A stretch of DNA of 64,000 nt from Chitinophagaceae bacterium (GTDB taxonomy: Bacteria; Bacteroidota; Bacteroidia; Chitinophagales; Chitinophagaceae), in assembly GCA_947455215.1 (NCBI GenBank), contig CANGNA010000016.1, positions 1 to 64,000 of the forward strand, in the 5' to 3' direction. The notes beneath the pieces are model-generated. The model did not search any database, was not told the origin of the DNA, and was given only the letters and a program-made list of their open reading frames with translations. Shown here piece after piece: positions 49,372-54,453 of this stretch (position 1 is the first letter of the stretch; every line of letters starts with the position of its first letter). Both the position numbers and the translations under genes were made by a program.

Positions 49372-49722
49372 ATGAAGCAATTTATTTTTTTGATATTACT
49401 TTCATGTAGGCTGATCTTTTGTTCCCAGACGAAGGGGAAGCCAGATATTATCGGTGGATGGTGTTTAGTCGAAACTAAAACGTTGAATGAAATAAACTAT
49501 GAAAGTATCTTTTTTGATAAAGATGGAGGAATGACCTTGTCCACAAGAGCTGATACTATATATTTTTTCTCGTATTCGGTTAATAACAGCACGTTGGTCA
49601 TTAATCGAGAAGATAGAAGCGTATCATTATGTGGCATTGAAAAAATGACTGCGGATTCACTTATACTTTCGTCCTTGTTGGAAAAGAAAGCGGTCCAGAA
49701 ATATTATCGCTGTGCGCATTAA
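49372..49722 (+). CDS. Small secreted lipocalin-like protein
   Basis: A 116-aa protein with an N-terminal hydrophobic segment (MKQFIFLILLSCRLIFC), possibly a lipoprotein signal, and the pattern IIGGWCLVETKTLNEINYES ... NNSTLVINREDRSVSLCGIE ... LTADSLILSS-like strands typical of lipocalin-like (DUF4923/DUF5004-style) small proteins. Similarity is at the level of pattern only. Base composition is more AT-rich than its neighbours. The 166-bp gap before it shows nothing notable. Its stop overlaps the 3' end of the convergent nucleotidyltransferase by 4 bp. Confidence 0.6.
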   Translation: MKQFIFLILLSCRLIFCSQTKGKPDIIGGWCLVETKTLNEINYESIFFDKDGGMTLSTRADTIYFFSYSVNNSTLVINREDRSVSLCGIEKMTADSLILSSLLEKKAVQKYYRCAH

Positions 49723-50201
49723 CCATTCTCCTCCCTTATCTTCTTTATCTTTTCCAGTTCCATCACATCCACCTGGTCTTTGGGACGGTTGATTACTTTT
49801 TTGTTTTGGATCAATTGGTTGATGTGCAGAAAGGGGACCTTTATTCCTTCAATGTCAGCGATCGATGCTTGCTGTAGACACTCTTCAAAAGTGAGGTGTT
49901 CCAGGCCTTTCATTTCGGTCATTATATCTACTTCTATTCCATCGGCAATATAAAAAGCTGACCAGCCGGGGATGAACTGAATAGTTTCTAAAAGTGGATT
50001 ATCTCCATAACCCGCGTCGCAAATTGCCGTTCTAAGGTTTCGGCGGTTGGCAAGTGTGTCTTCGATCCATAGATCAATATCTTCGGTTAGCCGGTTATAG
50101 CCATTGAAATTTGTAGCAAGGCCGCCAACCATAATGTATCTGACATTTTGGTTGTTGAGATGCCCCCAGAAATTGAGTAATAATTCGTCGAGGACATCCA
50201 T
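49719..50201 (-). CDS. Pol-beta superfamily nucleotidyltransferase (MNT/AbiEii-like)
   Basis: A 160-aa minimal nucleotidyltransferase. The motif VGGLATNFNGYNRLTEDIDL contains the GG helix and the catalytic E-D-x-D (Asp about residues 40-42); the third carboxylate is in GIEVDIMTEM. The C-terminal helical part ends in NKKVINRPKDQVDVMELEKI, like the DUF6036/AbiEii group. Members often act as toxins or as AMPylating antitoxins in two-gene modules. Its ATG overlaps the stop of a 57-aa ORF at 50201-50374 by one base, so the two are translationally coupled. The catalytic residues are intact. Confidence 0.8.
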   Translation of the reverse strand: MDVLDELLLNFWGHLNNQNVRYIMVGGLATNFNGYNRLTEDIDLWIEDTLANRRNLRTAICDAGYGDNPLLETIQFIPGWSAFYIADGIEVDIMTEMKGLEHLTFEECLQQASIADIEGIKVPFLHINQLIQNKKVINRPKDQVDVMELEKIKKIREENG

Positions 50202-50622: not shown

Positions 50623-52470
50623 ATGAGTGATTATATAGTTTCCGCCAGAAAGTACCGCCCGCAGACGTTTGATACTGTTGTAGGGCAGGAGCACATTACC
50701 ACTACGCTTAAAAATGCCATCCGCAATAGTCACCTGGCGCATGCCTACCTGTTTTGTGGTCCGCGTGGAGTGGGTAAGACCACGTGTGCCCGTATTTTGG
50801 CCAAGACCATCAACTGCGAGCACCCTACGGCCGATATGGAGGCCTGCGGGGTATGTAATACCTGTGCCAGCTTCAGCAACAATACATCGTTCAACGTGTT
50901 TGAGCTGGATGCTGCGAGCAACAACTCTGTAGACGATATACGCGAACTGGTGAACCAGGTGCGCTTTGCGCCGCAGCAGGGTAAATACAAGATATATATA
51001 ATAGATGAGGTGCATATGCTGAGTGCATCGGCATTCAATGCCTTCCTGAAGACATTGGAGGAGCCGCCACCATATGCCATATTCATCCTGGCCACTACCG
51101 AGAAGCATAAGATATTACCTACCATCCTCAGCCGTTGCCAGATATTCGACTTTAAGCGCATCACCACGGGCGATATCGTATCGCACCTGCAGGGTATAGC
51201 CGCTAAGGAGAGTATGGTAGCCCAGGAGGCCGCATTGCACATCATAGCCCAGAAGAGTGAGGGTTGTATGCGCGATGCCTTGTCTATGCTGGATCGTATA
51301 GCCAGCTTTACCAATGGTATGCTGACCTATAACGGCACCATGGAGCACCTGAACCTGCTGGACGCCGACTTCTACTTTGGTATAACCGACACCATGCTGA
51401 GCCAGGATGTGGCCGGTACGCTGCTGATGCTGGATAAGGCCCTGGAAAAGGGTTTTGAAGGCGATGTGGTGGTGAGCGGTTTGGCAGAGCACTTCCGCAA
51501 TCTGCTGTTGTGTAAGGACGTGCGCATGGCCAAGCTGCTGGATGTGCCTAATGACCACAAGCCGGTATTCCTCGAAAAATCTAACCAGGCACCGCCGTCG
51601 TTCCTGTTATCGGGCCTCAATGTACTTAACCAGTGCGAACTGGAATATAAGAACGCCACCAATCGCCGCCTGCATGTAGAAATGTGCCTGATAAGGCTGT
51701 GCTACGTATTGCAGGCAGTAAGCGGCAGCAACATCAGCATAGGATCCGATACGGGCGACTTAAAAAAAAACTTTAGCCCTGTAGGCATGCCGCCAGCGCC
51801 GGCTACTGTTACTGTAGTATCGGCCCCGCCGGCCAATGTTACTTACACAGCACCTGTGCAGGTGGCTGAGCAACCAGCACCTGTTTACCAGGCTCCGCCA
51901 CCACCACAGCCCGTGCAGGCTCCCCAGCCTGTAGCCCCCGCGGCTGTAATGCCTATGCCTGCTGCACCTACTGGTAACCCGGTAACCCCGGCCCATAAGC
52001 CTGCCGCACAGGGTGGCGCACGCCGCCTGAGCGCCAGTCTGCTAGATGATATGGACGAAGCCCTGGATAAGGTAGTAGCCCGTACCCATCCGCTTACATT
52101 GGAGGAGATCAACCAGTTATTTGAGGAGTATAAGCGGATACTGATGGATACCGGCAAGGGTACTGTATTTGCCCAGTTCACGCAGATGAAGGTAGAACTG
52201 TATCCGCCCGATGAGATAAAAATAGTGTCCCCGACGCCGATAGTGGATATGTATGCCCGCGAACAGCGCAGTCCGTTGCTGGATTTTTACCGCGATAAGA
52301 CCAGCCTTACAGTACGTATTACCACTGAATTGAGGGCGGATGCGAGCGCCATGGCCGAAATGCAAAAGAACGTGGTGCTGAGCAAGAGCGAGATGTTTGA
52401 GGCGATGGTGCAGAAAAACCCGTTCCTCGGTAAGCTGAAGGATGCGCTGGGCATGCAGATAGAGTATTAG
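50623..52470 (+). CDS. dnaX: DNA polymerase III subunit tau (gamma/tau)
   Basis: A 615-aa clamp-loader subunit. Start ATG 50623 (MSDYIVSARKYRPQTFDTVV) is preferred over an in-frame codon at 50575. The AAA+ module has Walker A GPRGVGKTTCARIL (about residue 46), the four-cysteine zinc knuckle C-x8-CGVCNTC (about 67-83), Walker B IYIIDEVHMLSASAFNAFLK and the SRC sensor in LSRCQIFDFK. Domain III ends near residue 365. A Pro/Ala/Gln-rich linker (about 390-475) and a C-terminal polymerase-binding domain follow. An A9 run at 51762-51770 in codons 380-383 lies at the core/linker junction and may generate a gamma form. Confidence 0.95.
   Translation: MSDYIVSARKYRPQTFDTVVGQEHITTTLKNAIRNSHLAHAYLFCGPRGVGKTTCARILAKTINCEHPTADMEACGVCNTCASFSNNTSFNVFELDAASNNSVDDIRELVNQVRFAPQQGKYKIYIIDEVHMLSASAFNAFLKTLEEPPPYAIFILATTEKHKILPTILSRCQIFDFKRITTGDIVSHLQGIAAKESMVAQEAALHIIAQKSEGCMRDALSMLDRIASFTNGMLTYNGTMEHLNLLDADFYFGITDTMLSQDVAGTLLMLDKALEKGFEGDVVVSGLAEHFRNLLLCKDVRMAKLLDVPNDHKPVFLEKSNQAPPSFLLSGLNVLNQCELEYKNATNRRLHVEMCLIRLCYVLQAVSGSNISIGSDTGDLKKNFSPVGMPPAPATVTVVSAPPANVTYTAPVQVAEQPAPVYQAPPPPQPVQAPQPVAPAAVMPMPAAPTGNPVTPAHKPAAQGGARRLSASLLDDMDEALDKVVARTHPLTLEEINQLFEEYKRILMDTGKGTVFAQFTQMKVELYPPDEIKIVSPTPIVDMYAREQRSPLLDFYRDKTSLTVRITTELRADASAMAEMQKNVVLSKSEMFEAMVQKNPFLGKLKDALGMQIEY
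51762..51776 (+). other. Candidate slippage/frameshift site producing a gamma subunit from dnaX
   Basis: Nine consecutive A (51762-51770) read in frame as TTA-AAA-AAA-AAC-TTT-AGC. Adding one A, or shifting the ribosome by -1, gives AAA-AAA-AAA-CTT-TAG, ending at 51776. Removing one A gives ACT-TTA-GCC-CTG-TAG. The -1 product would be about 384 aa, that is, the ATPase core plus domain III without the linker and tau tail. In Thermus a run of nine A in dnaX works by transcriptional slippage, and in E. coli an A-rich heptamer works by ribosomal frameshifting. Confidence 0.55.
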
Positions 52471-52707: not shown

Positions 52708-54453
52708 ATGGCGGAAGCGATACGTATGCCGTTGCTGAGTGATACGATGAAAGAAGGCGTTATTGCCGACTGGTTGAAGAAGGTAGGGGACGAAGTAAAG
52801 GCCGATGATGTGATAGCAGAAGTGGAGACCGATAAGGCCACCATGGAAGTAACTCCTTATGTTGACGGTACATTATTATATATAGCGGCAGATAAAGGCC
52901 AGGGTGTGCCTGTAAATGGCATTATGGCCATTATAGGTAAGCCGGGCGAAGATTTTCAGTCGATACTGGATAACGAGAAGCAGGCTGCACCACAGGCGCC
53001 AGCGGCTACACCGGCTGCAACTACACCTGCACAAGCGGCCCCGGCTGCTCCTGCACCCGAAGCTCCTGCGGCACCACAACCGCAGGCGGCACTAGCTGCT
53101 CCGGCAGCGGCACCTAAGCCTGGTGATGCTACAGTAGTGCGTATGCCACTGCTCAGCGACACTATGAAGGAAGGCAAGATAGTGGCCTGGCACAAGAAAG
53201 TGGGCGATACCATAAAGAGCGATGATGTGATAGCAGAAGTGGAGACCGATAAGGCCACCATGGAAGTGATGCCTTACGCCGATGGTACCCTGCTGTACAT
53301 TGGTGTGCAGGAAGGAGACGCCGCTAAGATCAATGATATCATAGCTATAGTAGGTAAGCCGGGCACAGATGTTACCCCTTATCTGGATGGTGGTGCTGCG
53401 CCTGTAGCCGCACAGCCGGCAGCTGCTGCACCACAGGCTGCACCTGCACAGCAGAACGCTGCACCAGCTGCGCCGCAGGCAGCTCCGGTAGCACACAACA
53501 GTAACGAACGTGTAATAGCATCGCCACTGGCTAAGAGGCTGGCAGCAGAAAAGGGTATAGATATTCATCAGTTGCATGGTAGCGGCGATAACGGCCGCAT
53601 CGTGAAGCGCGATGTAGACACCTTTACGCCATCGGCACAGCCTGCTCCGCAGGTTGCGCAGGCTGCACCACAGCAAGCGGCTCCTGCACAGGCAGCGCCA
53701 CAGGCTGCAGCAGCCCCGGCTCCGCAGAAGGCTGCAGCACAGGTGCCTGCATTCACTCCTGCTTCAGGCACAGAAGGACATACAGATATTCCGCTTACAC
53801 AGATGCGCCGCATCATAGCGCAAAGGCTGGCAGAAAGCAAGTTCAGCGCACCGCACTTCTACCTGCGCATGACCATTACTATGGATAAGGCGATGGAAGC
53901 GCGTACGGCCATGAACAATGTATCGCCGGTGAAGATATCGTTCAACGATATGGTGATCAAGGCTGTGGCTATGGCGTTGCGTAAGCATCCTGCCGTAAAC
54001 AGCTCATGGATGGGTGATTTCATCCGCCAGAACCACCACATCAGCATTGGTACTGCCGTAGCTGTTGATGAGGGTCTGATAGTGCCGGTAGTGAAATTTG
54101 CCGACCAGAAGTCACTGTCGCAGATAGCACAGGAGGCAAGCACACTGATAGATAAGGCACGCAACAAGAAGATACAGCCACACGAGTTTACCGGTAATAC
54201 CTTTACCATAAGCAACCTGGGCATGATGGATATAGATGAATTCACAGCCATCATCAACCCGCCGGATGCTTGCATACTGGCAGTAGGCAAGATACAGGCT
54301 ACACCGTTAGTAGAGAACGGTGCAGTAGTAGTAAGGAACCTGATGAAGCTGACCCTGAGCTGCGATCACCGCGTGGTAGATGGCGCTGTAGGCAGCAAGT
54401 TCCTGCAAACACTGAAAGCATACATGGAGAACCCGGCTACTATGCTGGTGTAA
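52708..54453 (+). CDS. pdhC: Pyruvate dehydrogenase E2 (dihydrolipoamide acetyltransferase)
   Basis: A 581-aa E2 with two lipoyl domains (residues ~2-80 and ~147-225), each with the lipoylated lysine in EVETDKATMEV. Both domains are followed by Ala/Pro linkers. A peripheral subunit-binding domain (~272-305: ASPLAKRLAAEKGIDIHQLH) docks E1/E3, and the catalytic acyltransferase domain (~355-581) ends in SCDHRVVDGAVGSKFLQTLK with the active-site His and Asp. It makes acetyl-CoA from pyruvate-derived acetyl. Two lipoyl domains and the pyruvate-type sequence argue for PDH rather than OGDH. E1 and E3 genes are not adjacent. Terminator at 54476. Confidence 0.92.
   Translation: MAEAIRMPLLSDTMKEGVIADWLKKVGDEVKADDVIAEVETDKATMEVTPYVDGTLLYIAADKGQGVPVNGIMAIIGKPGEDFQSILDNEKQAAPQAPAATPAATTPAQAAPAAPAPEAPAAPQPQAALAAPAAAPKPGDATVVRMPLLSDTMKEGKIVAWHKKVGDTIKSDDVIAEVETDKATMEVMPYADGTLLYIGVQEGDAAKINDIIAIVGKPGTDVTPYLDGGAAPVAAQPAAAAPQAAPAQQNAAPAAPQAAPVAHNSNERVIASPLAKRLAAEKGIDIHQLHGSGDNGRIVKRDVDTFTPSAQPAPQVAQAAPQQAAPAQAAPQAAAAPAPQKAAAQVPAFTPASGTEGHTDIPLTQMRRIIAQRLAESKFSAPHFYLRMTITMDKAMEARTAMNNVSPVKISFNDMVIKAVAMALRKHPAVNSSWMGDFIRQNHHISIGTAVAVDEGLIVPVVKFADQKSLSQIAQEASTLIDKARNKKIQPHEFTGNTFTISNLGMMDIDEFTAIINPPDACILAVGKIQATPLVENGAVVVRNLMKLTLSCDHRVVDGAVGSKFLQTLKAYMENPATMLV

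Follow-up and report, generated by a model that had tools for sequence, protein, structure and literature searches.

A run of nine adenines in dnaX

The DNA analysed here, a 64,000-nucleotide stretch of a Chitinophagaceae genome (hereafter the window; GenBank assembly GCA_947455215.1, contig CANGNA010000016.1, positions 1 to 64,000), contains dnaX, the gene for DNA polymerase III subunit tau. The gene was identified as an open reading frame (ORF) with Pfam and NCBIfam matches. It lies on the forward strand at 50623..52470, from an ATG at 50623 to a stop codon that ends at 52470, and its 615 codons encode a product of 615 amino acids. The NCBIfam gamma/tau model NF011531 matches this product over residues 1-613, and Pfam matches delimit the ATPase (21-180), the lid (185-227) and domain III (245-364) of the clamp-loader core (residues 1-364; 50623..51714). 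Tau is encoded in the DNA frame as a single ORF and is not divided over two.

Within dnaX, exactly nine A (51762..51770, forward strand) begin at the third base of codon 380, as the initial annotation of this DNA had stated. This A9 run, a proposed transcriptional slippage site that is also kept in relatives, is situated at 62% of the gene, ahead of a proline/alanine-rich linker and the tau C-terminal part (51777..52467, forward strand; recognized from the sequence and from the C-terminal profile of relatives), which would be absent from the shorter DnaX form, gamma. The initial annotation placed the run exactly after the core; it is indeed near that boundary and before the linker, but it lies 16 codons beyond the end of domain III at residue 364.

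In the zero frame the run reads TTA AAA AAA AAC TTT AGC. Translation of altered runs gives the tail CTT TAG when one A is added or the -1 frame is entered, so that the TAG at 51774..51776 would close a gamma of 384 amino acids ending in LKKKL. When one A is lost, the tail becomes ACT TTA GCC CTG TAG, and the TAG at 51782..51784 (coordinates from the sequence) would close a product of 386 amino acids, or of 387 when two A are added. The predicted lengths are 383, 386, 615, 384, 387, 616 and 385 amino acids for A7 through A13, A12 giving tau with one additional residue. These translations bear out what had been predicted for the window, namely termination at CTT TAG after an extra A or a -1 shift, a stop within five codons after loss of an A, and a product of about 384 amino acids comprising the core with domain III.

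Conservation of the run in relatives

Each dnaX gene in the comparison was anchored to the DnaX core by tblastn, and A-runs were sought at the core/linker boundary. In the family, 147 genomes were searched and yielded 139 dnaX genes, one genome being without a match and seven having only weak matches that were judged to be other ATPases; two genes were too short, leaving 137 usable. The class set began with 90 genomes, from which three that belonged to the family, one without a match, two with weak matches only and one fragment of 156 residues were left out; five genes added from the other-class search brought this set to 88, of which one was too short and 87 were usable. Forty-six genomes from other classes of the same phylum gave 36 genes, after two with weak matches only and eight further genes were left out. 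The duplicate locus L139 was excluded. The class name Bacteroidia follows GTDB usage; NCBI puts Taibaiella in class Chitinophagia. Taibaiella belongs to Chitinophagaceae.

Runs of nine or more A were found at the boundary in 127/137 usable family genes, in 72/87 from the rest of the class and in 17/36 from other classes. At least one carrier was present in 90 of the 94 family genera, in 44 of the 54 other class families sampled and in 7 of 15 families outside the class. Elsewhere in dnaX such runs were rare, with one further run in the 139 family genes, seven in the 88 class genes and none in the 36 others. Alignment of dnaX from other Chitinophagaceae had been proposed as a check, and its outcome strongly favours a programmed site at the linker boundary; the run is not peculiar to this lineage, as its spread over the class shows. 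Public genome contigs were scanned as well, with some genomes in common with the other sets, and 75 of the best 80 loci had a run of at least nine A. Carriers among these 80 included Chitinophaga, Terrimonas, Pedobacter, Mucilaginibacter, Dyadobacter, Hymenobacter, Rufibacter and Sphingobacterium, and the nearest of the loci included Bacteroidetes metagenome-assembled genomes (MAGs) and a Taibaiella sp. MAG, with 81% core identity. Three of the carriers are cultured strains: Chitinophaga terrae DSM 23920 (A10, L324), Terrimonas ferruginea DSM 30193 (A9, L313) and Pedobacter cryoconitis DSM 14825 (A10, L354). Tau was in the DNA frame in 67 of these loci, in the -1 frame in seven and in the +1 frame in one.

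The run also varies little in length. Among 260 genes, 90 had A9, 121 A10, four A11, one A12, two A8 and eight A7, where a length below nine is that of the longest A-run in the vicinity, possibly one with no relation to the site. A9 and A10 together accounted for 211/260 genes. In contrast to its length, the codon phase of the run varies: it was found in all three phases, and the encoded residues include EKKN, VKKK, EKKK, KKKR, KKKL, LKKK and LKKN. The initial annotation had listed other phases in relatives as a sign against slippage. The phases do vary, but since slippage is phase-independent, their variation argues for selection on the nucleotide run itself, and the shifted-frame stops described below are kept regardless of phase.

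The significance of the dnaX A9 comes from its conservation at this site, not from its mere occurrence. Although it is the sole A9 in the window, shuffled windows contained 0.74 A9 each on average, and 47/100 contained at least one. Rarity within the window was therefore rejected as evidence, as the presence of an A9 is by itself uninformative. Uniqueness in the genome was rejected as proof as well, because the window's own genome (4.2 Mb) has 32 overlapping A9 matches, which form 28 distinct runs, and of the 27 distinct runs for which a locus was available, 6 (dnaX included) sit at 10%-90% of an open frame, taken from stop to stop with at least 190 codons. One of the other A9 runs in this genome (L302; G000:C72:7812-7820, minus strand) falls within an open frame of 719 codons or more, 30% into the part of it that is seen.

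Stop codons in the shifted frames

PMC1088944, in its available sections, calls truncating slippage cases hard to judge by comparison. For that reason we used a statistic that considers stops in both shifted frames, with other positions within the same genes as the null. Among the family genes that have the run and a single ORF, a stop followed within four codons in the -1 frame of 119/123 (null 0.329) and within six codons in the +1 frame of 103/123 (null 0.345), and both frames stopped promptly in 99/123 (null 0.104). One-ORF genes of the class gave 44/48 for the -1 stop, 40/48 for the +1 stop and 37/48 for both (joint null 0.106), and those of other classes gave 7/8, 4/8 and 4/8, respectively (joint null 0.087). 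One gene in these statistics, L248, is cut by a contig end and was counted as +1.

When the amino acids were held fixed and the codons randomized, both stops were present in 93/122 family genes as compared to 23.0 expected, in 37/47 class genes as compared to 11.7, and in 4/8 genes of other classes as compared to 0.7; these counts begin at the first whole codon past the run, so their totals differ slightly from those above. Both stops were likewise found in 70/87 family genes sampled at one per genus, in 25/32 sampled at one per other family of the class, and in 3/6 outside the class, a sampling that removes the kinship of genes only partly. In the same region of genes that lack the run, the corresponding fractions were 0.13 for the family, 0.13 for the class and 0.08 for other classes. 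The +1 stops are the discriminating ones, because slippage requires them and -1 ribosomal frameshifting does not.

Relatives with tau in a shifted frame

The tau frame could be scored in 255 of the 260 genes and was unclear in five, among them L248. In 36/255 the DNA frame closes just past the run, and the remainder of tau is encoded at -1 (33 genes) or at +1 (three). The second ORF (ORF2) of these two-ORF genes matched the tau C-terminal profile in 31/36, among them every one of the 28 from the family and class; the five without a match are all from outside the class. In a family member with dnaX on a 6.3 Mb contig (L110, genome G106), the boundary has A8 and tau is in the -1 frame, as two ORFs. 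On a FastTree phylogeny of the DnaX core of the 255 genes, in which change counts are minima, the tau frame changed at least 24 times, and the tau frame was mixed within seven class families and within one family from outside the class.

Where the DNA frame encodes gamma, tau could be made only through recoding. A separate translation start for the tau half was considered and judged unlikely, because the first ATG in ORF2 is distant from the run or lacking: with ATG alone scored as a start, it lies 12-179 codons past the run in 30/36 genes, and the other six have none. In annotated genomes, a dnaX of this kind would be expected to look broken or short.

The proposed slippage mechanism and its alternatives

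The A-run, its conservation, the stops in both shifted frames and the shifted-frame relatives point to a programmed transcriptional-slippage site from which cells would make, and presumably use, gamma; we put the probability of this reading at about 80%. RNA polymerase would slip on the run and yield dnaX mRNAs with differing numbers of A. Messages with nine A, or nine plus a multiple of three, would be read through to tau (615 amino acids), and the remainder would stop two to five codons past the run, giving a gamma of about 383-387 amino acids that has the ATPase, lid and domain III but neither the linker nor the C-terminal part of tau. One gene would then supply both clamp-loader forms, as it does in Thermus thermophilus. 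With every frame filled by slippage, the frame of tau in the DNA would matter little, which would explain the relatives with tau at -1 or +1. Somewhat less firmly, we favour the view that the A-run of Bacteroidia dnaX is an old, frame-indifferent switch, in which the tau frame drifts nearly freely, the run and the stops are kept, and the dosage of tau to gamma is set by the fidelity of RNA polymerase on A9 or A10.

Several observations weigh against slippage as the source of gamma, and most of them would fit an alternative that we consider unlikely, in which gamma arises by -1 ribosomal frameshifting on A AAA AAA or A AAA AAC with no strong stimulators, or by frameshifting combined with slippage. 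Both heptamers are present at the window run, and an in-frame A AAA AAA lies within each A-run of nine or more. Of the shifted-frame stops, that at -1 is closest to the run and best kept, prompt stops in both shifted frames are not found in 24/123 family one-ORF genes, and the excess of -1 among the two-ORF genes (33/36) is what -1 ribosomal frameshifting would give. This bias is equally expected if one A is inserted, however, so it is compatible with slippage too. Folding was computed for alternate loci of the family and class sets, and the 40 nucleotides downstream of the run were slightly more structured than the control, with a mean z of -0.39 vs 0.01 in the family and -0.38 vs 0.34 in the class. 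The z-score is a weak measure, as the values for the E. coli site were -2.3 (40 nucleotides), -0.18 (50), 0.1 (60) and -1.0 (80). Shine-Dalgarno (SD)-like motifs, of which five were scored, were few and occurred in the 20 nucleotides before the run in 12/127 family, 3/73 class and 3/17 other-class genes, as compared to 4/127, 7/73 and 1/17 in controls further upstream; they thus exceeded the control in the family and outside the class, but not in the class.

On the other side, the stimulators of E. coli-type frameshifting were not evident in the sequence. In place of the in-frame A_AAA_AAG heptamer of that type, the window run has A AAA AAA and A AAA AAC, and reading by eye found none of the five SD-like motifs in the 20 nucleotides before its run. 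As the near-zero z-scores of the E. coli control in some windows led us to set these scores aside as a sole test, we compared stem energies too. The mean over the downstream 40 nucleotides was -6.4 kcal/mol for 66 family loci and -5.3 for 39 class loci, as compared to -19.7 for E. coli; over 50 nucleotides, in what is a weak test, the window gave -11.5 kcal/mol (z 1.0) and E. coli -19.7 (z -0.18). Among 44 tRNA matches in the window's own genome (G000), tRNA-Lys with anticodon TTT was found at L385 and L422 (at a contig end) and with CTT at L387, that is, two lysine anticodons in place of the single tRNA-Lys (UUU) of the E. coli type. Seven A suffice for ribosomal frameshifting, yet A7 and A8 are the rare lengths, the +1 stops that it does not need are well above their null, and three two-ORF genes have tau at +1.

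Two further explanations dispense with a programmed second product. We give little credit to the idea that the linker has to begin with a patch rich in lysine and that AT-rich codon usage produces the run there as a side effect. AAA is indeed the preferred lysine codon in the family set (3700 vs 1528 AAG), and random codon draws given the amino acids at the site contain at least nine A in 37%. Among genes with the run or KK at the site, however, at least nine A were found in 127/132 in the family, 72/77 in the class and 17/20 in other classes, whereas elsewhere in the same genes KK pairs were all A in 107/200, 92/183 and 17/43, respectively, and KKK elsewhere in family genes was A9 in 0/2. The residues and the phase vary and the length does not, the shifted-frame stops far exceed the null with fixed amino acids, and two-ORF genes require recoding for tau. 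Least credible of all is a contingency tract at the DNA level, with phase variation by replication slippage that would turn tau on in some cells and off in others, and with the two-ORF genes as off states or as homopolymer assembly errors. Homopolymers mutate readily, and a shifted tau frame is indeed found in 36 genes. Tau belongs to the core of the replication machinery, though, so an off state should be costly; most two-ORF genes retain a long ORF2 that matches tau; and errors or off states would be expected in both directions, not nearly always at -1.

The slippage reading must also accommodate genes that lack the run, 10/137 in the family, 15/87 in the class and 19/36 in other classes, and a run presence that changes at least 27 times on the DnaX-core tree. 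Because the run is missing in some genes and its presence changes repeatedly, gamma production through the A-run is not universal.

Exceptional relatives and neighbouring genes

Ten family members have no run of nine or more A at the boundary: L110, L050, L056, L078, L086, L093, L094, L244, L251 and L252. Two of these, L086 and L093, have an in-frame A AAA AAG as in E. coli, and from this sequence a switch to ribosomal frameshifting is conceivable in them. In L215, from a genome of 0.5 Mb that is 93% complete (G171), DnaX stops at codon 353 and has no run, and a search of six frames of the fetched 2.5 kb for a tau C-terminal match found none; judged by its sequence, this reduced genome seems to have a DnaX of the gamma type alone.

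In the window, dnaX is adjoined on the other strand by a gene (49719-50201, minus strand) for a 160-amino-acid nucleotidyltransferase-like protein of unknown function (PF09970, DUF2204). Immediately downstream (52708-54453, plus strand) is the gene for a 2-oxoacid dehydrogenase acyltransferase with two lipoyl domains.

Relation to known systems

Three ways of making gamma are described in the available sections of PMC5009743 and PMC1088944: slippage on A9 in Thermus dnaX, ribosomal frameshifting in E. coli and proteolysis in Caulobacter. The Thermus thermophilus case (Larsen et al. 2000, as described in the same sections of these two papers) resembles the window most closely, with A9 on the sense strand, tau in one ORF, close stops in both other frames and a short product, gamma; that each lysine codon has its own tRNA is a further likeness, according to the accessible text of PMC5009743. 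In Thermus, however, the site is not at the same place as the window run (62% of the gene, 16 codons past domain III), and the two slippage sites may be independent. Slippage was measured in Thermus, whereas the window site is known from sequence alone. A system of the Thermus type would be expected to show mRNAs that differ in their number of A, and gamma and tau in a ratio of about 1:1.

In E. coli, as proposed here, gamma ends soon after an A-rich site past domain III. The E. coli site differs in being a short A6G with a strong downstream stem and with AGGGAG upstream, and E. coli has one tRNA-Lys (PMC5009743, in the part available) as compared to the two anticodons of the window genome. 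Caulobacter (same part of PMC5009743) likewise obtains a DnaX of gamma length from the same gene, but by proteolysis after translation, for which no slippage run is needed.

PMC1088944, in its available sections, regards a 9-A run that is kept in length among homologues as very likely used for slippage. Measured in this way, the run is kept in 127/137 family and 72/87 class genes, but in only 17/36 from other classes, with a length of 9-12. A GeneTack study of 2013 (PMC3711429, available in part) reported 17 two-ORF dnaX genes in 12 genera, 12 of the genes with poly-A, and proposed transcriptional realignment. Similar to the two-ORF relatives described here, its genes, which include those of Chlorobium and Chloroherpeton, carry A7-A10 where the gamma ORF gives way to the tau ORF, the two being offset by a -1 frameshift in the DNA; they differ in being two-ORF only, as far as the available part goes, whereas here one-ORF and two-ORF genes (-1 and +1) share one conserved run. 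Nine A10 species are listed in the supplement of that study and may include Bacteroidota. The initial annotation knew of no description for this lineage, which is partly right given this report of two-ORF dnaX with poly-A. A 2012 review (PMC3290774), in its accessible text, held that most bacteria outside the enterobacteria and Thermus are without a dnaX frameshift signature and may not make gamma. No earlier account of Bacteroidia-wide dnaX slippage was found in the literature searched, with subscription papers and the GeneTack supplement lying outside that search. The mechanism and the gene were already known, and the breadth of the site, its occurrence in three phases and the drift between one-ORF and two-ORF genes are what was not found in that literature.

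If the frame-indifferent switch operates in this way, two DnaX forms would be the rule across most of the class. If the slippage reading is correct, most of the sampled families of this large class would make gamma, and would do so via slippage of RNA polymerase and not via the ribosome. The one-ORF and two-ORF genes would then offer many natural comparisons for asking what gamma does.
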